A stretch of DNA of 64,000 nt from an uncultured Bacteroidales bacterium (GTDB lineage: Bacteria > Bacteroidota > Bacteroidia > Bacteroidales > Barnesiellaceae), in the NCBI GenBank assembly GCA_949298955.1, contig CASFYQ010000001.1:1-64000 (forward strand), given 5' to 3'. The position numbers and the translations under genes were made by a program. The notes under the pieces were generated by a model. The model searched no databases. It was not told the DNA's origin and saw nothing but the letters and a program-made list of their open reading frames with translations. Below are positions 11,491 to 63,050 of the stretch, piece after piece. Positions within the stretch are counted from its first letter, which is position 1. The number at the start of each line of letters is the position of its first letter.

Positions 11491-11491
11491 G

Positions 11492-11578
11492 CGGAAAGAG
11501 AGGGATTCGAACCCTCGGTACCCGTAAGGGTACAACGGTTTTCGAGACCGTCCCGATCGACCACTCCGGCATCTTTCC
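11492..11578 (-). tRNA. tRNA-Ser (anticodon CGA)
   Basis: On the minus strand the acceptor GGAAAGA pairs with TCTTTCC. There is a D-arm with GGTCGATCGGG, an anticodon stem ACGGT/ACCGT around the loop CTCGAAA (anticodon CGA, reads UCG), a long variable arm GTACCC-TTAC-GGGTAC typical of tRNA-Ser, and the T-arm GAGGGTTCGAATCCCTC. The discriminator is G and CCA is not encoded. Total length is 87 bases. A TACCTTTG box about 25 bases upstream of the gene (near 11604-11611) may be its promoter. Confidence 0.95.
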
Positions 11579-24920: not shown

Positions 24921-25065
24921 AATCTTTCCTTTCTTAATGGGGTTATGCAAAGATAACAAAAGAATTGGATTTTTGTTGGTTTTACCCTCAAAGAATTTCG
25001 CTTTTGTGAATTGTTTTCCAAAAAATTATAAAGATAAAACCAACCCGAATCGGGTATTGAAAAAG

Positions 25066-25157
25066 TCACTATCTTTGTTACACGAAGACAGGAGGCGGCT
25101 CGGGATAAAAATATCTGAAACGATGTTTCGATATTTTATTCTCCACTCGCCTTTTCC
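25066..25157 (+). repeat. Promoter-bearing intergenic repeat, copy A (upstream of uvrA)
   Basis: This is the first unit of a tandem pair. It runs CACTATCTTTGTTACACGAA, GACAGGAGGCGGCTCGG, then a hairpin AAAATATC-GAAAC / GTTTC-GATATTTT, then CTCGCCTTTTCC. The TATCTTTG boxes of units A and B start at 25070 and 25158, a period of 88 bases. Related copies are at 31262, 44948 (reversed) and 56717 (reversed). Confidence 0.75.
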
Positions 25158-25242
25158 TATCTTTGTTTCACGAAAATAGGATGCGGCTCGGCAAAAAGTT
25201 CAAGCAAACTTGACTTTCTGCACTTGCCTTTCACTATCTTTG
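25150..25242 (+). repeat. Promoter-bearing intergenic repeat, copy B (upstream of uvrA)
   Basis: The second unit has CTATCTTTGTTTCACGAAAA, TAGGATGCGGCTCGGC, a hairpin AAAGTTCAAG / CTTGACTTT and CTTGCCTTTCACTATCTTTGC. Boxes start at 25158 and 25235 (77 bases). The last box, with TTG 22 bases before it, is a plausible promoter for uvrA, whose ATG is at 25352. Confidence 0.75.
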
Positions 25243-25351
25243 CACTCGCTTTGCCGGGCTGGTCGCGCATTGGGATAATCGCCTTTTGGAGCGACGCATC
25301 GGGGGCATGCAGAGAAAGAAACAAAGGACTTAAAATTATCTCCGAAGAACC

Positions 25352-28141
25352 ATGTCAGAACAGTCAATTTTTATCAAGGGGGCGCGAGTCAACAACTTGA
25401 AAAATATCGATATAGAGATTCCTCGCAATCGTTTTATCGTTATCACGGGACTTTCGGGTTCGGGCAAGTCGTCGCTGGCGTTCGATACACTCTATGCCGA
25501 GGGGCAGCGACGGTATGTCGAGAGTTTGTCGGCCTATGCCCGGCAGTTTTTGGGGCGCATGAGTAAACCCGAGTGCGACTACATCAAGGGAATACCACCT
25601 GCTATTGCGATAGAGCAGAAAGTCAATACGCGCAATCCTCGCTCGACGGTGGGAACCTCGACCGAGATATACGACTACCTGCGGCTACTCTATGCCCGCA
25701 TCGGGAAGACCTATTCGCCGGTGTCGGGCATGCCGGTCAAAAAACATCAGGTCGACGACGTGGTGAATTGCGCCCTCGGTTTTCCCGACGGTACCCGGTT
25801 TGCCTTACTTACCAAACTGGCTCTCCCCGAAGGCCGCGACTTGAAAACTCATTTGCAGATTCTTCAAAAAGAGGGCTTCCCCCGTGTCGAGGTCGACGGC
25901 CGTTTTGTAGCCATCGAAGATTTGTTGGCCGGCGACATGCTGCCCGATGCGGAGAAAGTGCGTCTTGTAATCGACCGCTTGAGCGTGTCGCATGCAGGCG
26001 ATACGGTGAGCCGGCTTGCCGATTCGGTAGAGACTGCCTTTTTCGAGGGGGCTGGCGAGTGCATCGTGCAGGTGCATGCACCTGAGGGAGTGCGAGAGTT
26101 CGATTTTTCGAAACGTTTCGAGGCCGACGGCATTACCTTTACCGAACCGAGTGACTTGATGTTCAATTTCAACAATCCGGTGGGAGCCTGTCCCAAGTGT
26201 GAAGGTTTCGGTCGGGTGGTCGGCATCGATGAGGATTTGGTAGTACCCAATAAGACTCTCTCGATCTATGACGATGCAGTGATGTGTTGGCGAGGCGAGA
26301 AGATGAGCGAGTGGAAAAACGACCTTATTCGCCGGGCCGAATCGTTGTATTTTCCCATACATCGCCCCTATTTTAAGCTGACCGAGCGCGAGAAGGATAT
26401 TCTGTGGCACGGTTCGGGCGATTTCGAGGGTATCGATGGCTTTTTTGCCATGCTCGAAGCGAACCAGTACAAGATACAATATAGGGTGATGCTCGCCCGC
26501 TATCGGGGCAAAACTACCTGTCCGGTGTGCAAAGGCAGCCGGCTGAAACCCGAGGCCGAATATGTAAAGGTGGGCGGTCGTTCCATCACCGAGTTGGTGA
26601 ATCTGCCCATCGACGAACTGAAAGATTTCTTCGACAACCTGCAACTCGACGAACACGACTCGACGATTGCCAAACGTTTGCTGACCGAGATCAAAAACCG
26701 TATCCGTTTTTTGCAGGAGGTGGGACTCGATTATCTTACTCTCAACCGACTGTCGTCGACCCTCTCGGGCGGTGAGAGTCAGCGTATCAACCTGGCCACC
26801 TCGCTGGGCAGCAGTCTGGTGGGGTCGCTCTATATTCTCGACGAGCCCAGTATCGGGCTTCATTCGCGCGACACCCATCTGCTTATCAAGGTTCTCAGGG
26901 AGTTGCAACAACTGGGTAATACGGTTGTCGTGGTCGAACACGACGAAGAGATAATCCGGGCTGCCGACTATATTATCGACATAGGCCCGCTGGCCGGTCG
27001 GCTGGGGGGCGAGGTCGTGTATCAGGGCAACCTGTCGCGATTGCCCAAAGCCACTCGCAGTTATACCATGCGCTACCTGACGGGCGAGAGTAAAATCGAA
27101 TTGCCGACCGTGCGCCGCAAGTGGAACCAGTATATCGAGGTAGAGGGTGCCGCACAGAACAACCTGAAATCGGTCAATGTGCGTTTCCCGCTTCGGGTGA
27201 TGACCGTTGTCACGGGTGTGAGCGGCTCGGGCAAATCGTCGCTCGTGCGCGATGTCTTTTACCGCGGTCTCCTGCGCTATTATGGCGAGGGGGGCGAGAT
27301 GCCGGGCACCTATTCTCGTTTCACGGGCGACTTGGATCGCATCAAGGCCGTCGAGTTTGTCGACCAGAATCCCATCGGCAAATCGACACGCTCCAATCCC
27401 GCGACCTATTTAAAGGCTTTCGATGAAATACGCAAGCTCTTTGCCGACCAGCAGGGAGCCAAACAGATGGGTTTTTCGCCCTCGTATTTCTCTTTCAATT
27501 CCGAGGGCGGCCGCTGTGAAGAGTGTAAGGGCGAGGGTACCATTACAGTCGAGATGCAGTTCATGGCCGACATCGTATTGGAGTGCGAGGCCTGCCATGG
27601 GAAACGCTATAAACAAGATGTGCTCGAGATTGAATATCGGGGCAAAAACATAAGCGATGTGCTCGATATGACCATCAACCAGGCTATCGAATTTTTTTCG
27701 GAAGTCGGTGGCAGTCAGGAGAAACGCATCGTCAAGCGGTTGAAACCGTTGCAGGATGTGGGGCTGGGGTATATCAAACTGGGACAATCGTCGTCGACCC
27801 TCTCGGGCGGTGAGAACCAGCGGGTAAAACTGGCCTTCTTCCTCAGCAACGAGCGGCAGGAGCCCACGCTCTTCATTTTCGACGAGCCTACCACGGGCCT
27901 CCATTTTCACGACATCAACACGTTGCTCAAATCGTTCAACCAACTGATAGACCGCGGTCATACCGTATTGATTATCGAGCACAACATGGACGTAATCAAG
28001 TGTGCCGACCACATTATCGACATGGGTCCCGAGGGGGGTAAAGAGGGTGGTTACGTCGTTTGCACAGGTACACCCGAAGAGGTGGCCCGTTGCGAGGCCT
28101 CCTATACGGGGCGGTTCCTGAAAGAGAAACTGGGCGTTTAG
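25352..28141 (+). CDS. uvrA: Excinuclease ABC subunit A (UvrA family)
   Basis: A 929-residue DNA-damage sensor with two ABC ATPase halves. Half 1 has Walker [11 protein letters not shown] (about 31) with the signature [16 protein letters not shown], and half 2 has [10 protein letters not shown] (about 625) with [16 protein letters not shown]. Zinc-finger Cys pairs are seen at [16 protein letters not shown] and CEECKGEG / CEACHGKR. It recognises lesions for UvrB/C excision. The length and the [10 protein letters not shown] variant suggest the shorter UvrA paralogue present in many Bacteroidetes beside the standard one; I cannot confirm that from this window. The stop overlaps a convergent gene by 4 bases. 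Two promoter-like repeats precede the gene. Confidence 0.93.
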
Positions 28142-28641
28142 CGGATACGGTCCAGACTGCGTACCAGGCGTTCGTCTTTATTGATGGCACGGTAGGCCAA
28201 TATGTCGAGTACAAGAGCCACGAAAGGTATTACAACGCAGGCCGACCACGATGTGGCGGTTGCCGCGAGATCTTCGTGGAAAGTATATCCGCTCAGAAAG
28301 ATAATGATATAGAACGTCACCAAAAAGAAAGCATTGATCATGCAGATGCGAGCCTGAGTCGGTCGGTTCTTGTATAGAAAAATCGCTACGACCGACAGGA
28401 GGGCAATCACGGCACCCAAAGCCAATATGCCCCATGTAGGCGTGAATACCGACGTCTGGGCGATAGCGGCACCTGCTTCGGCCGGTATGGCGGCAGGCTC
28501 GGCCATGACGGTCGATACTCCTTGCGAGGTAAAACTGTAAATACCGTCGGGGGTGGTAAACTGGGCAATGGGGCAAAACAAGAACGTGGCCATTAAGGCG
28601 GCGGCCAGCAGCAGGTAAATCGATTGAATGCGTTGTATCAT
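28138..28641 (-). CDS. DUF4293 family membrane protein
   Basis: From ATG 28641 about 167 residues. There are four predicted membrane helices (SIYLLLAAALMATFLFCPIA, GILALGAVIALLSVVAIFLY, MINAFFLVTFYIIIFLSG and CVVIPFVALVLDILAYRAI). The start MIQRIQSIYLLLAA is the typical N-terminus of DUF4293 proteins, which are of unknown function and nearly confined to Bacteroidetes. The longer frame would add 30 residues read from the upstream region. It is convergent with uvrA and overlaps its stop by 4 bases. A TATCTTTG box on the minus strand (28729-28736) is a possible promoter. Confidence 0.82.
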   Translation of the reverse strand: MIQRIQSIYLLLAAALMATFLFCPIAQFTTPDGIYSFTSQGVSTVMAEPAAIPAEAGAAIAQTSVFTPTWGILALGAVIALLSVVAIFLYKNRPTQARICMINAFFLVTFYIIIFLSGYTFHEDLAATATSWSACVVIPFVALVLDILAYRAINKDERLVRSLDRIR

Positions 28642-28962
28642 AATATATCTATTTTGTTCTTTCTTTTCTCCCGGAATCGGGAGCTCTTGTGTAAGATGGC
28701 GATGCAGTCGCCACATATTTATTCGTGACAAAGATACAATAATTGATTGTTATGTTTGGCGCGTTCGCCTGTTTTTTATTCGATAATACGCTCCCCAATC
28801 GGGTAAATCTGTTCCCTTTTGTAAAAATAGGATAATCGATAGTCCCTCGGTATTGTCTTTTGAGACCGAAATAAAAAACATTTCTCGGCACACTATTTGT
28901 AGGTTAAGTTTGTTATATTGGAGAATGCTTTTTAATTTTACTCCGATTTAATACGTGCCCCA
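28642..28962. other. Intergenic region between DUF4293 and TPR genes
   Basis: This region shows no gene. It holds the minus-strand -7 box for the DUF4293 gene (28729-28736), a small GGCG/CGCC hairpin followed by TGTTTTTTATT near 28770-28790, and an AT-rich leader ahead of the TPR gene. No strong promoter pair for the TPR gene was found. Confidence 0.5.
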
Positions 28963-31261: not shown

Positions 31262-31360
31262 TATCGCTATCTTTGTTTCACGAAAATAGGAGACGGTTCG
31301 GCATAGTCAAATTTGAAAACGATGTTTCCATTTGTCTCTGCATAAGCCTTTCATTATCGT
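31262..31360 (+). repeat. Promoter-bearing intergenic repeat, copy C
   Basis: CTATCTTTGTTTCACGAAAA, TAGGAGACGGTTCGGCATAG, then a hairpin CAAATTTGAAAAC / GTTTCCATTTG and GTCTCTGCATAAGCC, ending in CATTATCGTAA where other copies have TATCTTTG. It lies directly upstream of the gene at 31381 and points at it. Confidence 0.75.
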
Positions 31361-31380
31361 AAAAGAAGAGGAAAAAGAGT

Positions 31381-32136
31381 ATGAAACGAATTGCATATTT
31401 GATGCTCCTTTGTGTTGCCCTGCCGTTTCTGCCGGCGCGGGGCGCTTCGCTCACCGATTACCGTGAGAGATTGTACGACTTGTTTATTGCACAAAAGATT
31501 CCGCAGTGGGGAACTGTTTTGTCGCAGATGAGTGCCGATAAGACGTGCGATACTCTCGATGGACAATACGAAATTCTGTGCGGTTACTATGGCTTGGTGG
31601 GGCACTTGGTTGACAAGAAGCGGAAAGATGAAGCGCAGGCCTATTTGAAAACAGCCCTCGCCCTGTCGGAGAAATACCGCAAGCAATATCCCCACGATGC
31701 CCGCTTCAAAGCCTTGCATGCTAATTTGGTAGGTCTCAAAATTGCCTTGTCGCCCTTGCGGGCGACCACCTTGGCACCCGGCATGCTCTCGTCGGCCCGC
31801 GAAGCCTATAAGATAGATGCCGGCGACAGTTGGGTGTCCCTGCTATATGGCAATATCCTTTTCTATATGCCCGGAGTGTTTGGCGGTGATAAGGAGAAGG
31901 GGCTGGCATGTTATCAGTCGGCGCGCCGGGAGATGGAGAAAAACATGTCGGTCAACTCTCACCATTGGCTCTATGTGCAACTGCTGGTGACCATCGGTGT
32001 GGTCAATGAGCGCAACGAACGGTATGAGCAAGCGTTGGCCATGTATAAAACTATTATGGACAAATATCCCGATTATGCTTTTGTGCGCAACGTTCTTTAT
32101 CCACGTGCTCAAAAAGCGATGCGGGAAAAACGATAA
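31381..32136 (+). CDS. Secreted TPR-like protein of unknown function
   Basis: A 251-residue protein with a signal peptide (MKRIAYLMLLCVALPFLPARG). Helical repeat segments such as AQAYLKTALALSEKYRKQYPHDARFKALHANLVGL and ERYEQALAMYKTIMDKYPDY resemble TPRs. The central stretch YGNILFYMPGVFGGDKEKGLACYQSA also looks like a repeat. No enzyme motif is visible. It is 3 bases before prmA, so the two genes may be co-transcribed. Confidence 0.65.
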   Translation: MKRIAYLMLLCVALPFLPARGASLTDYRERLYDLFIAQKIPQWGTVLSQMSADKTCDTLDGQYEILCGYYGLVGHLVDKKRKDEAQAYLKTALALSEKYRKQYPHDARFKALHANLVGLKIALSPLRATTLAPGMLSSAREAYKIDAGDSWVSLLYGNILFYMPGVFGGDKEKGLACYQSARREMEKNMSVNSHHWLYVQLLVTIGVVNERNERYEQALAMYKTIMDKYPDYAFVRNVLYPRAQKAMREKR

Positions 32137-42571: not shown

Positions 42572-44929
42572 TTATGATTCGATGATGGTGAATTTGGCAA
42601 ATTTGAGCAGGAGTTGTTTTTTGCCTACGTTGTCAAATTCGACGGTAATCTTGCTGTTGTCGCCCGTCCCTTCGATGGCTGTAACGGTGCCGTTGCCGAA
42701 ACGGGCATGGCAGATGCGGCTGCCGGTCTCGATTAGTCCGGCTGTTGTCGTGGCCGATGTTTGCGGGTTGGGGCGATTTTCATTCGAGGGACAGGACTCG
42801 ATTTTGGTCAGGCGTTTGGCCGGAGCCGGAGCTGTAAAGGGACGCGTCGGGGTGCGCTCGGTGCCGCTTTCGTCGCGGCGGAACGGTTTTCGCCCCCATT
42901 CGTTGTCAAACGAGGTGCGCCACGGGGTCTTCTCTTTGTGATCCAATTCCTGGCGGTCTTGCGCCGGCAGGTCGACATATCGCGGGTCGAGTTCCTTGAT
43001 GAACCGGCTGGGAGGCGACGATACCGTCTGGCCGTTGCGATAGCGGGTGAGGGCATAGGTGAGGGTGCAGTTTTCTTCGGCACGGGTGATGGCCACATAG
43101 AGCAAGCGTCGCTCTTCCTCGATTTCACGCTCGCTCTCCTGGCACATGGCCGAGGGGAATAGATTCTCCTCCACGCCCACGATAAATACCTGTTTAAATT
43201 CGAGTCCTTTCGAGGCGTGCACGGTCATCAGCGTCACTTTGTCCCGGTCGGCCTCATCGCCGTTGTCCTGGTCGGTAGCCAACGATATTTCGGCCAGGAA
43301 ATCCGAGAGGGAGGTTTGTGTCTCACCGGCCTCACGGCGCAGAGAGCAAAATTCCAGTACGCCGTTCAACAGTTCTTCGATATTCTCTTGCCGGCTGATA
43401 TTCTCGGGGGTGCGCTCGATGGTTATGTCGCGCATGATACCCGACTGCTTGATGATGGTTTCGGCCAGTTCGGGCGTTTCCAGCCGGGTGGCTGCATGAC
43501 GGAAACTCTCGATAAGCTCTTTGAATCCGTTCAATTTGGCAATCGTGCCGTTGTTGACCTCGAGGTTGTGTCCTGCGGGATCGGCAATCACGTTCCATAT
43601 GCTGTGCCCGCTTTCGTGTGCCCGGTCTATGAGCTTGGCGAGTGTCGTATTGCCTATCCCTCGGGCGGGATAGTTGATAACTCGCTTGATGGCCTCTTCG
43701 TCGTCGGGGTTGATGGTAAGACGGAAATAGGCAATGGCATCTTTTATCTCCTTGCGCTGGTAGAACGACAGCCCCCCGTAGATGCGGTAGGGTATATTGC
43801 GTTTGCGCAACGCCTCTTCCAGGGTACGCGACTGGGCGTTGGTGCGGTAAAGTATGGCAAAATCGTTGTAGCGGCAGTGGGTCGACAGGCGCAACTCGGC
43901 AATGCGGTTCGAGACGATGAAACCCTCTTCGAAATCGGAGTAGGCGCTGATTACCTTCACCTTGCTGCCCTGTTCCTTTTGTGAGAATATCTGCTTGGGA
44001 ATCTGCTCTTTATTTTTGGCAATGAGGCTGTTGGCCGTGTTGACGATATTCTGCGTAGAGCGATAGTTGCGCTCGAGCTTGAATGTTTTCAGCCCCGGAT
44101 ACTCTTTGCTCAGGCCCAGAATATTGTGAATGTTGGCACCTCGAAAGGAGTAGATACTTTGGGCATCGTCGCCCACTACGCAAATGCGGTTGTGTTCTTT
44201 GCTCAGCTGGCTCACGATGAGGTGCTGCGCAAAGTTGGTATCCTGATACTCGTCGACCAGAATATAGGCAAAGAGGTTGCGGTAGTGTTGCAACACGTCG
44301 GGGTGGTCGCGGAACAAGATGTTGGTGTTGAGCAACAGGTCGTCGAAATCCATAGCCCCTGACACGAAACAGCGGTGACGGTAGATGCGGTATATCTCGT
44401 GAATGAGAGGACGTTTCGAGCGGGTATCCATCTCGACCAGTTCTCGATTTTGGGCATAGACATGAGGCTCGATAAGGGCGTTTTTTGCATTCGAGATAAT
44501 CGCTTGTACGGTCGAGGGTTTATATGCTTTGTCGTCGAGTTGCAACTCGCGGATAATACTCTTGATGAGCGACAGAGAGTCGGAGGCGTCGTAGACGGTG
44601 AAATCGTGGCGATAGCCCAGCCGGTCGGCATTGGATCGCAAAATGCGTGAGAAGATAGAGTGGAATGTTCCCGCCCACAGCCGCGAAGCGGTTTCTATCC
44701 CCACCACCGAAGCGATGCGATCTTTCATTTCATTGGCCGCTTTGTTGGTAAAGGTGAGAGCCAGCAGGCGATAGGGGGGATACCCCATCTGCAAGAGATG
44801 CGCAATTTTGTAGGTAAGCACCCGGGTCTTCCCCGACCCGGCACCGGCAATTACCAGTTCGGGGCCTTCGGTATAGAGTACAGCTTCGCGTTGCTGTTCG
44901 TTCAGTTCGTTCAAATAATCTTGTTCCAC
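42572..44929 (-). CDS. pcrA: UvrD/PcrA-type ATP-dependent DNA helicase
   Basis: A 785-residue SF1 helicase from a GTG start at 44929. The longer frame (to 44980) would be read from inside a promoter repeat, and AAGGGA lies just upstream of the GTG. Motifs: Q-motif and Walker A LVIAGAGSGKTRVLTYK (about 27), Walker B YILVDEYQDTNFAQ, GDDAQSIYSFRGA (III), GLEFKQVFIVGVEENLFPS (V) and LLYVAITRAEENC (VI). The C-terminal tail ends in the UvrD-like Tudor segment RFGNGTVTAIEGTG. It unwinds DNA in repair and replication. The nspC gene follows. Confidence 0.93.
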   Translation of the reverse strand: MEQDYLNELNEQQREAVLYTEGPELVIAGAGSGKTRVLTYKIAHLLQMGYPPYRLLALTFTNKAANEMKDRIASVVGIETASRLWAGTFHSIFSRILRSNADRLGYRHDFTVYDASDSLSLIKSIIRELQLDDKAYKPSTVQAIISNAKNALIEPHVYAQNRELVEMDTRSKRPLIHEIYRIYRHRCFVSGAMDFDDLLLNTNILFRDHPDVLQHYRNLFAYILVDEYQDTNFAQHLIVSQLSKEHNRICVVGDDAQSIYSFRGANIHNILGLSKEYPGLKTFKLERNYRSTQNIVNTANSLIAKNKEQIPKQIFSQKEQGSKVKVISAYSDFEEGFIVSNRIAELRLSTHCRYNDFAILYRTNAQSRTLEEALRKRNIPYRIYGGLSFYQRKEIKDAIAYFRLTINPDDEEAIKRVINYPARGIGNTTLAKLIDRAHESGHSIWNVIADPAGHNLEVNNGTIAKLNGFKELIESFRHAATRLETPELAETIIKQSGIMRDITIERTPENISRQENIEELLNGVLEFCSLRREAGETQTSLSDFLAEISLATDQDNGDEADRDKVTLMTVHASKGLEFKQVFIVGVEENLFPSAMCQESEREIEEERRLLYVAITRAEENCTLTYALTRYRNGQTVSSPPSRFIKELDPRYVDLPAQDRQELDHKEKTPWRTSFDNEWGRKPFRRDESGTERTPTRPFTAPAPAKRLTKIESCPSNENRPNPQTSATTTAGLIETGSRICHARFGNGTVTAIEGTGDNSKITVEFDNVGKKQLLLKFAKFTIIES

Positions 44930-44947: not shown

Positions 44948-45062
44948 TACAAAGATACGCAAAGGTAAGAGCAGAGACAAATGAAAACATTTGTTTTCAA
45001 TTTGACTATGCCGAACCGCATCCTATTTTCGCGATATGCAAAGATAGTGAAAGGCGAGGACA
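44948..45062 (-). repeat. Promoter-bearing intergenic repeat, copy D (upstream of pcrA)
   Basis: On the minus strand: CCTTTCACTATCTTTGCATA, TCGCGAAAATAGGATGCGG, TTCGGCATAGTC, a hairpin CAAATTGAAAAC / GTTTTCATTTG, GTCTCTGC and finally ACCTTTGCGTATCTTTG. The boxes start at 45039 and 44950 in plus coordinates, 89 bases apart. The last box is about 21 bases from the pcrA GTG. Confidence 0.8.
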
Positions 45063-45156
45063 GAGGCAAATGGCAACTCAGATCCAAGTTGTTATTTTTG
45101 CCCGGGTTGTAACGTGTACAAGATTCGGGCCCCGTATAGACCCGTGAATCGCATAC

Positions 45157-55398: not shown

Positions 55399-55914
55399 TT
55401 ACTTTTTCGAACGTTTGGCAGCCCGTGTCATGGTAAAAGCCCGTTTGTAGAATATAAACAAGGGTATGGTGGCACCTACACCCAAAGTAAAGAGTACCGA
55501 TGCCGTGGTGATGCCGTTTTTGAAAATCTCGAGCAGATAGTGTATGGCTTCGCTGTCGTTGCCGCTGCTTTGCAGAAATTTGATAAGCGAGAACACGGTG
55601 CGGTAGGCATACATTCCCGGAATCATGGGGAGCAGTGCCGGTATGTAAAGCACGGTCGCAGGGCAGAAGATTCGACTGCCCGCGAGCAAACTGAGCATGC
55701 CTATCGAAAAGGCGGCGATAAACGAGGCCGAGGCCAGGTCGAGTCCGGTGAACTGTAACAGGACGAACCGTATGCTGTGCCCGATGGCCGCCAGCAGGGC
55801 CGTATAGGGAATAGCCCGTCGGGGAGGATTGGAGATAACCGAGAAGCCGATAGCTGCGATGGCCGCCCCGATGGCGTCGGACAGGACAGAGCCTAATATT
55901 TGCCAGTCAATCAT
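55399..55914 (-). CDS. Threonine/serine exporter, small (ThrE_2-like) subunit
   Basis: A 171-residue membrane protein with about five helices (ILGSVLSDAIGAAIAAIGFSVI, YTALLAAIGHSIRFVLLQF, AAFSIGMLSLLAGSRI). It matches PF12821, the C-terminal half of the ThrE exporter family, including ATVLYIPALLPMIPGMYAYR. ATG 55912-55914 overlaps the upstream stop (ATGA, 4 bases), proving translational coupling. Both halves are thought to form one transporter for threonine and serine. Confidence 0.85.
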   Translation of the reverse strand: MIDWQILGSVLSDAIGAAIAAIGFSVISNPPRRAIPYTALLAAIGHSIRFVLLQFTGLDLASASFIAAFSIGMLSLLAGSRIFCPATVLYIPALLPMIPGMYAYRTVFSLIKFLQSSGNDSEAIHYLLEIFKNGITTASVLFTLGVGATIPLFIFYKRAFTMTRAAKRSKK

Positions 55915-56687
55915 AACAATTTCCCTCCCATCATTAAAAGTGTAGCAGCCAGGCCGCAGGCGATACATATAATCAGTAACAGGGCGTTGATGAGCCGGGC
56001 AGTGCCGGCCAGTACGTGCCCCTCGATAATATCGATAATGCCGTTGATCAAGGGCACGCCGGGTATAAGAAAGAGCACGCTGGTACCGATGGCGATGTCG
56101 GTGGTCGTGCCCCATTGTTGCCACATCGTCACCGAAGCGATGAGCGATGCAAAGAAAGCCGATATGGTGAATACGAAATAATGATTGATATGGCGTTTGC
56201 CCAGCTCCTGCTTGATGCGGAATCCCACAAGAGTGGCTATGAACACGGCCGCAACGGCAATCCAGTCGCCGTTGAACAATCGGCAAAACGAGGCATTGGC
56301 AAACCCGACCAAAATCCACACCACCCAGTCGTTTAACCGAGGTGTGCTTGTGATGGCACGGAATTTCTCCCACAGCGTATCGAGAGAGAGGTGGTTGTCG
56401 TAGGCGTCCCAGCTGAGAGCACTCAACTCCGAGTTGAACTCAAAATTGATTGCCCCGGCTTTGGCTGTGTTTACCGTACTGTATACGTGCGAATTGTCTT
56501 TGCTTCGCAAAGTCATGATGATGGTTTTGTGGAAGAGGGTCATGTGCGCCTCGAATCCAAACGACTCGGCTATGCGGGCGGTATTGCGCACGATACGCGA
56601 GGTATGCACCCCCGATGCCATCAGGCAGGTCGCATATTCTGTGAGAAATTGCGATACGGCTTTCAGTTCTTCGTGTACGTTGTTCAC
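55911..56687 (-). CDS. Threonine/serine exporter, large (ThrE-like) subunit
   Basis: From GTG 56687 about 258 residues; the longer frame is read out of a repeat and is not believed. The N-terminal 90 residues are soluble (HEELKAVSQFLTEYATCLMASGVHTSRIVRNTARIAESFG), then come about five membrane helices (WVVWILVGFANASFCRLF, WIAVAAVFIATLVGF, FLIPGVPLINGIIDIIEG). This is the PF06738 half of a split ThrE exporter. The ATGA overlap with the next gene and the family pairing support a two-subunit transporter. The exact start is uncertain. Confidence 0.82.
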   Translation of the reverse strand: MNNVHEELKAVSQFLTEYATCLMASGVHTSRIVRNTARIAESFGFEAHMTLFHKTIIMTLRSKDNSHVYSTVNTAKAGAINFEFNSELSALSWDAYDNHLSLDTLWEKFRAITSTPRLNDWVVWILVGFANASFCRLFNGDWIAVAAVFIATLVGFRIKQELGKRHINHYFVFTISAFFASLIASVTMWQQWGTTTDIAIGTSVLFLIPGVPLINGIIDIIEGHVLAGTARLINALLLIICIACGLAATLLMMGGKLL

Positions 56688-56716
56688 CTTGTTGTAGTAT
56701 TGTCCGTTTTTTTTTG

Positions 56717-56795
56717 AGCTGCAAAGATAGCGAAAGGCGAGAGCCGAGACAAATGAAAATGGAATTTTCAAATTTAGACTATGCCGACCTTGTAA
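56717..56795 (-). repeat. Promoter-bearing intergenic repeat, copy E (partial)
   Basis: On the minus strand it reads GGTCGGCATAGTC, a hairpin AAATTTGAAAA / TTTTCATTT, GTCTCGGCTCTCG and CCTTTCGCTATCTTTGCAG. The CGAAAATAGG half seen in other copies is not recognisable here. It sits just upstream of, and points at, the ThrE gene. Confidence 0.7.
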
Positions 56796-56886
56796 TCTTC
56801 TATGCTAAAAGAGAAAATTTTTTACGAAAGAAAGAACCGATGTTCAAGAACATAGTGTATATCGTTAAAATTTGTAGCAAAATATT

Positions 56887-62818: not shown

Positions 62819-62849
62819 TTGTAAAATAAGAATAAAGGATATAACTTTG
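62819..62849 (+). promoter_or_regulatory. Promoter of the riboswitch-metE unit
   Basis: TTG (62819-62821), a 20-base spacer and TAACTTTG (62842-62849) match the -33/-7 boxes. Transcription would start just before the riboswitch. Confidence 0.6.
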
Positions 62850-62857
62850 TCCCTCGT

Positions 62858-63050
62858 AATCGGTTTGCCTTTACCGGTTCGGTAAAGCAATGAAAAGGGA
62901 ATCGGGTGCAAGTCCCGAACAGGCCCGCTGCTGTGAAGTCTCATGAGGATTTCGGACACATACTGCAATGCCACTAATCGGGTTGTGATTGGGAAGGCGT
63001 CAGGAAAAGGAGACAAGTCAGAAGACCTGCCGGTTGCAACGAAACAGACA
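62858..63050 (+). promoter_or_regulatory. Cobalamin riboswitch
   Basis: Conserved cobalamin aptamer blocks are in order: AAAAGGGAATCGGGTGCAAG, TCCCGAACAGGCCCGCTGCT and GTGA, then GCCACT, GGGAAGGCG and AGTCAGAAGACCTGCC. This is a class of riboswitch that binds adenosyl- or other cobalamins and usually lowers expression when B12 is present. About 135 bases separate it from the ATG of the MetE-like gene. The exact expression platform was not resolved, but GC-rich pairing elements follow the aptamer. Confidence 0.93.

Follow-up and report, generated by a model that had tools for sequence, protein, structure and literature searches.

Short, probably mobile non-coding hairpin repeats at the -7 promoter boxes of Bacteroidales

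Repeat copies in a Barnesiella genome and beyond

The window, that is, the whole 64,000-nucleotide stretch of DNA analysed here, belongs to a Barnesiella genome of 2,544,807 bases in 30 contigs (G000). It starts with the end of a 5S rRNA gene (positions 1-74), and includes a tRNA-Ser(cga) gene (11491-11578) and a Cobalamin riboswitch (62844-63048, 104.8 bits). Upstream of several of its genes lie units of a short repeat, each bounded by the arm that faces the box on its left and by the last base of the box on its right. The features are listed below, with the state of the orthologous sites in the assemblies of eight congeneric genomes (G001 to G008) and with bit scores from R1, a covariance model built from nine units.

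25070..25077, forward strand: left TATCTTTG, target site and the -7 box native to the promoter of uvrA; the orthologous sites in G001, G004, G005, G007 and G008 are empty, with a single TATCTTTG followed by the native 5' region
25083..25165, forward strand: unit 1, ATATC/GATAT hairpin class, with its own terminal TATCTTTG at 25158-25165; 71.3 bits; missing from five sister species
25171..25242, forward strand: unit 2, TTCAAG/CTTGA hairpin class, whose terminal TATCTTTG (25235-25242) is the predicted current -7 box of uvrA; 94.7 bits
25352..28141, forward strand: gene downstream of units 1 and 2, which we take to be uvrA from its own sequence; orthologues in the 8 sister genomes are 90-95% identical and occupy conserved places
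31268..31275, forward strand: left native TATCTTTG of the gene at 31381; orthologous sites empty in G001, G004, G005, G007 and G008
31281..31362, forward strand: unit with a degenerate right box, TTATCGTAA, as read from the sequence; 61.5 bits
31381..32136, forward strand: gene after the 31281 unit (251 aa); orthologues in 8 genomes at 71-82% identity
42572..44929, reverse strand: presumably a uvrD/pcrA-type helicase gene, judging from its N-terminal sequence; comparison of orthologues shows the GTG start at 44929 to be conserved
44950..45031, reverse strand: unit upstream of the helicase gene, right box 44950-44957; 74.1 bits; native promoter empty in G003, G005, G006 and G007
45039..45080 (about), reverse strand: half copy with a decayed 5' side, upstream of the 44950 unit, which retains the 3' hairpin arm (CATTTG), CTCGCCTTTCAC and TATCTTTG (45039-45046); exact right-end match, with no R1 unit there
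55911..56688, reverse strand: gene after the 56722 unit, with a conserved GTG start at 56688; the GTG and the reading frame that follows are conserved in 8 genomes
56722..56801, reverse strand: unit with an eroded left arm, right box 56722-56729; 31.4 bits; site empty or unit-less in G002, G005 and G007, occupied in G003, G004 and G006

An earlier note on this DNA had described five dispersed copies in the window, and all five are present where it placed them; it had missed the half copy on the reverse strand at about 45039-45080. Its description of a box at the start and/or end of each copy applies in general, except that the right box of the unit at 31281 is degenerate and the unit at 56722 has no clear left box. 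Across the window, TATCTTTG occurs 16 times where 2.0 occurrences are expected, an eightfold excess reached in none of 100 shuffles. The note had proposed a covariance-model search of the complete genome, and R1 returned 103 matches in G000 at E <= 0.1 (best E 7e-24), of which a few of the weakest are probably due to chance; this places the family at about 100 copies. The right-end 20-mer, CTCRCCTTTCRCTATCTTTG, has 86 matches in the genome at up to 2 mismatches, and the reversed control has 0. Units are about 67-94 bp long, non-coding and inverted at their ends, as in MITEs, and arrays of 2-3 units are common in G000. All 9 Barnesiella genomes searched are positive, with 35-109 units each. The repeat is best read as a Bacteroidales family of mobile, non-coding elements of very small size, and what is novel about it is the target, the core promoter box itself. 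No earlier description of it was found in the openly accessible literature.

Placement was scored against genes called with a simple codon-usage gene caller. The earlier note had every copy upstream of a gene and pointing to it, and the genome-wide count bears this out: the next downstream gene is on the same strand for 98 of 99 scorable copies (binomial P = 1.6e-28, with the reservation that this treats adjacent array members, which depend on one another, as separate cases). The gene behind the copy is oriented at random (45 on the same strand, 50 on the opposite). Over 73 loci, with only the last unit at each one counted, the median distance from box to start codon is 33 bases, and 61 of the 73 fall within the 150 bases that the note had set for its check. 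This gene-ward placement could partly be survivorship, with insertions elsewhere having been purged. Ten downstream genes were scanned; they encode a single-strand binding protein, a bifunctional nuclease, a glycosyltransferase, an M23 peptidase, a polysaccharide flippase, an AraC-type regulator, an XerD-like recombinase, a phospholipase A1 and two proteins without an assigned family, and so have no common function and form no regulon. A unit lies about 150 bases upstream of an XerD-like recombinase gene both in G000 (L095 1508-1590) and in Candidatus Barnesiella excrementavium (L165 4144-4309). A rare exception to the orientation rule is encountered in G003, where three units lie upstream of a reverse gene: two point at it, and the third abuts them in the opposite orientation (L130 4469-4699).

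Across the order, a survey limited to 11 scored candidates per genome gave 40 positives among 392 Bacteroidales genomes, so that 40 is a minimum; units are dense in some families of the order and were undetected in many. Exact right ends occur in records of Paraprevotella, Leyella, Xylanibacter, Marseilla, Caecibacteroides and Bacteroides ndongoniae, as well as in Rikenellaceae, Paludibacteraceae and Muribaculaceae, and R1 detects whole units in these stretches. One plasmid record, from Phocaeicola massiliensis, carries a unit. Carriage by phages was considered and rejected, since the exact right-end 20-mer is found in 0 of 2.9 million viral contigs and, of nine matching records named 'Bacteriophage sp.', the two examined are both Barnesiella chromosomal places. 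Both come from human faeces: MT836672.1 (L297) corresponds to the uvrA place of a G006-like species, and MT835643.1 (L299) matches locus L118 of G006. By their sequence, they look like mislabelled bacterial contigs.

Unit structure and the predicted promoter in the right half

The units share a near-invariant skeleton around a variable hairpin (AAGATAGGATGCGGCTCGG-[hairpin]-CTCRCCTTTCRCTATCTTTG), with the consensus 5'-CGAAgATAGGatGCGGytCGG-[hairpin, mostly 26-46 bases]-CTCrCCTTTCrCTATCTTTG-3'. Near-complete pairing is possible between the left arm, CGAAGATAG, and the box CTATCTTTG, whether this is the box that terminates the unit or the one that precedes it, and the arm often reads AATATAG where the box is TATATTTG. 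Inside this box-complementary arm comes GGC/GCC pairing, followed by the variable hairpin; the left spacer varies from about 1 to 10 bases. A subfamily in G036 (L122 1903-2053) has the box TGCCTTTG and the arm CGAAAGCAGG, with a partial left arm after its last box.

The earlier note had reported that the hairpin arms differ between copies yet stay complementary, a claim that is confirmed by two approaches. Among 102 distinct rows, nearly all of them G000 units, 81.5% of cells are paired (79% for the terminal arms), and changes on both sides are seen in 296 cells, compared with 136 +/- 8 after shuffling and 21-124 when the partners are slid; the covariation score is 0.301, compared with 0.144 and at most 0.109, respectively, all of these counts coming from an alignment that was fitted to the covariance model and is therefore biased towards structure. 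The second approach is alignment-free. For 98 non-redundant hairpins from many genera across Bacteroidales, pairing of a unit's own arms averages -10.8 kcal/mol, compared with -5.9 kcal/mol for pairing with the right arms of other units. The covariation is thus real, but the note went too far in concluding from it that structure is under selection: mobility that depends on the hairpin, or correction of imperfect palindromes by template switching, would also yield covariation. One hairpin subfamily, GGAAAT/ATTTCC, accounts for 6 of 6 units in G006 and 0 of 100 in G000, which points to recent spread, or to homogenisation, inside lineages. A unit at L089 1572-1665 (G000:C3:146271-146364) has an internal duplication of GCGGCTCGAC that joins a left arm of the TATCTTTG type to a right part of the TATATTTG type; from its sequence it looks like a chimera of two units.

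The note had matched the box to the established -7 element of Bacteroidetes promoters, and this is correct. The Bacteroides promoter consensus has TTTG at -33 and TAnnTTTG at -7 (PMC7366714). In 42 of the 98 non-redundant units, TTTG stands exactly 20 bases before the -7 box, and none has it at spacings of 16, 17 or 21; TTG is at the -33 position in 56 of the 98. The TTTG-N20-TATCTTTG of the unit therefore fits the consensus of sigma-ABfr promoters (PMC7366714), the difference being that here a mobile palindrome delivers the promoter. The two halves of the unit do not persist equally: about 15 of 86 right ends lack a left half, compared with 0 of 47 left ends that lack a right half (P = 0.001). 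Since the right half, with its correctly spaced -33 TTTG, outlives the 5' half, host genes probably use it as a promoter. Selection for a used promoter would explain its survival, as could 5' truncation on insertion.

Empty and occupied sites in related genomes

Comparison of syntenic promoters in the eight congeneric genomes reveals precise empty sites, that is, insertion polymorphism, at uvrA, at the gene at 31381, at uvrD and, through insertions in G003, at the gene at 28138-28716. The uvrA promoter is plain in five of these genomes (for example, ...AAAGTTCGTATCTTTGCAGTCGCTTTG...), whereas in G000 it reads ...TATCTTTG-[unit]-[unit ending TATCTTTG]CACTCGCTTTG...; three units occupy this place in G003, and two each in G006 and G002. 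At the 31381 promoter, five species have the plain ...TATTGCCTATCTTTGCACCCTCGTACAG... type, G000 has the box followed by a unit, and G003 and G006 have two units. The uvrD promoter is empty in four genomes and carries one to three units in the others. The reverse gene at 28138-28716 has units at its native box in G003 only, two on the reverse strand with the third, oppositely oriented one beside them. Native bases run on directly at the box, both upstream and downstream, with no visible flanking loss. One native TATCTTTG has thus become TATCTTTG-[unit ending TATCTTTG], and therefore the element docks at the -7 box and regenerates it. A similar picture emerges from the first units, where TATCTTTG with at most 1 mismatch is present within 24 bases upstream in 43 of 74 cases, compared with 1 of 74 at a control position.

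Units also turn over in place. This follows from the sister genomes G001 and G008, which are 90% identical over 18.7 kb and have near-identical uvrD flanks, and whose hairpins at uvrD belong to different classes. Two units upstream of uvrA (the TAGTC..TCGG and TAGCC..TTGG variants) stand in swapped order in G006 and in the faecal strain of L297 (L297 1-162, L137 846-1013), their sequences suggesting unit exchange within a species. Within arrays, units whose hairpins differ in class nevertheless tend to have the same box variant (L035, L119). Such array-wide agreement suggests target-site duplication or local conversion, and not a box carried by the element; few discordant box variants are available for comparing a left with a right origin of the box.

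The earlier note had read the repeat as a replicated promoter module spread over the genome. Its replication, spread and promoter content are well supported by the copy number, the gene-ward orientation, the insertion polymorphism and the -33 TTTG, while insertion into existing -7 boxes is the key point that goes beyond the note.

Mechanism of spread and related systems

We consider it quite likely that the family is a non-coding mobile repeat that docks at -7 boxes, rebuilds the box and replaces promoters, where we infer promoter activity and movement in trans from the sequences. The unit is an imperfect palindrome, composed of a conserved, box-complementary left arm, a conserved internal loop, a variable complementary hairpin and a conserved right end with the sigma-ABfr -7 box, and the -33 TTTG is carried in the 3' hairpin arm. 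A copy would insert immediately 3' of an existing promoter's -7 box and recreate the box at its far end. The gene would retain its native 5' region; the native -33 region would be displaced, and that of the element would take over. Repeated insertion at the same boxes would lead to tandem arrays. The host would then use the 3' half as a promoter, so that this half would be retained and the left arm would decay. A trans-acting factor may recognise the folded hairpin, probably as single-stranded DNA, together with the box. The most economical reading is a non-autonomous element that is recognised in trans as a folded hairpin, and for which the -7 box is both target and end. More tentatively, the units may represent an order-wide class of promoter cassettes, transposase-independent or cryptically mobilised, made of folded hairpin DNA that integrates when its arm pairs with a -7 box, possibly one that the open promoter complex has melted; promoters themselves would then be attachment sites that are overwritten again and again.

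Could the pattern arise from convergent promoter architecture under a common regulator, with no mobile family at all? This would account for the same place and orientation upstream of genes, but the relatedness extends over ~80 bp, the units form arrays and have species-specific hairpin subfamilies, and the clean empty sites contradict it; we regard it as extremely improbable. A regulated RNA leader or riboswitch-like element in many 5' UTRs, which the earlier note had also suggested, is mostly unsupported and in our view very unlikely. Some units do have a strong RNA fold (z = -5.2), and a unit is transcribed if its left box fires. Most units, however, end at the -7 box, and the hairpin therefore precedes the predicted start and usually lies outside the 5' leader. 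The hairpin would enter the RNA only with a start at the left box, within arrays, or in copies with a decayed right box. The last of these probably applies to the gene at 31381, where the native left box probably drives transcription and the hairpin of the 31281 unit would fall in the 5' leader. Besides, the 5' halves decay while the promoter half stays, the genes lack a common function, and Rfam models gave no match at gathering score in the window copies and none at E = 1 for 25000-25300.

The remaining alternatives concern the way in which the units move. Spread without a transposase is conceivable: during replication or repair, template switching at the box would copy any segment lying between two TATCTTTG boxes into another promoter, with stalling at the hairpin as a help and arm correction as the source of covariation. 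Insertion always at an 8-9 base homology found at both unit ends, an arm that follows the box variant (TATATTTG with AATATAG), the tandem arrays, the hairpin exchange between G001 and G008 and the failure to find a transposase are all in keeping with it. Yet the parts of the skeleton that lie outside the box (GGATGCGGCTCGG, CTCGCCTTTC) are conserved across the entire order, which suggests recognition by a protein, and the patchiness at the family level, dense or nearly absent, looks like a specific mobilising system, so that template switching seems rather unlikely. In cassette-like site-specific recombination, the hairpin, folded as single-stranded DNA, would be integrated at a short core by a tyrosine recombinase, in the manner of integron integrase at attC sites or of the CTnDOT integrase. 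This would fit the folded imperfect palindrome with conserved arms and variable apical stem, the duplicated box on both sides, the cassette-like arrays and the unit exchange at a fixed place. The CTnDOT integrase acts at a -7-like core, GTAnnTTTGC, and the resemblance of this core to the box speaks for such a mechanism. We give it a low probability nonetheless, as G000 has just 6 tyrosine recombinases, two of which are apparently XerC/XerD-like, the only one adjoining a copy (with the unit upstream) is itself XerD-like, and a left spacer of about 1-10 bases would be unusual for a fixed crossover region. Movement of single-stranded DNA hairpins by a Y1 transposase, as in REP/REPIN-RAYT or IS200/IS605 systems, would explain insertion 3' of a short target, the target-like end motif and a left arm able to pair with the target, and compensatory hairpin changes have been reported for REPINs (PMC3116915). 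However, when PF01797 (Y1_Tnp) was searched for in G000 and 29 relatives, with positive control genomes, no match was found in G000, G002, G003, G004, G007, G029 or G036; among the dense genomes searched, a clear match is present only in G006, and element-poor relatives frequently carry more than one, often several. No GTAG/CGTC tag was seen either. A Y1/RAYT mobiliser is therefore largely refuted for these genomes and is very improbable overall.

A reverse-transcriptase mobiliser was likewise rejected, RVT_1 being missing in 11 of 19 element-dense genomes. Inspection of orphan right ends revealed 5'-decayed copies and no autonomous version with cargo, and clustering of 260 downstream proteins gave no recurrent neighbour gene, only shared cellular genes.

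If docking at the -7 box is correct, core promoters in gut Bacteroidales, those of uvrA, uvrD and SSB genes among many, would be repeatedly overwritten by a selfish hairpin, and gene promoters would be replaced chromosome-wide without gene breakage. Such a choice of target would be of a new kind for a mobile element, would readily supply regulatory variation between species, and would open a concrete search for the mobilising factor. It would also carry a warning, since shared upstream motifs in such genomes need not mean shared regulation.

Several known systems resemble the family in part. Integron attC sites and empty cassettes have an imperfect palindrome that can fold as single-stranded DNA, conserved arms, a variable stem, arrays and exchange at a fixed core; the likeness is architectural only, since the repeat family has a promoter box as its target, no attC core (GTTRRRY) was seen by eye, and none of the six G000 tyrosine recombinases was shown to be IntI. 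IS200/IS605 elements share insertion directly 3' of a short target, a target-like element end and a left arm that can pair with the target. Unlike them, the repeat family lacks a Y1 enzyme and has a longer target (8-9 bases), and the box variant in its arrays follows the place and not the hairpin class.

The Correia elements of Neisseria (CREE/NEMIS) are also short, intergenic and present in about 100 copies, with inverted repeats and promoter motifs at their ends; they too lie upstream of genes, including uvrB, and vary in presence between strains (PMC2649163). Their terminal repeats are 26 bp long and their insertion sites are TA dinucleotides; in the mtrCDE case they lie between the native promoter and the gene (PMC2649163). 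In contrast, the repeat family targets the 8-base -7 box TATCTTTG and regenerates it, has unrelated termini, no TA target and a hairpin of variable sequence at its centre, and is found in many families of one order. REPINs and REP sequences are non-autonomous hairpin units with conserved ends, a variable complementary middle, compensatory changes and a tendency to cluster, and REPINs are reported to be randomly distributed in extragenic space (PMC3116915), whereas the repeat family is promoter-bound and directional, and lacks a cognate RAYT/Y1 gene in G000 and most dense genomes. The closest known systems are thus Correia elements in life-style and REPINs in anatomy, and each departs from the repeat family in a defining feature that was tested.
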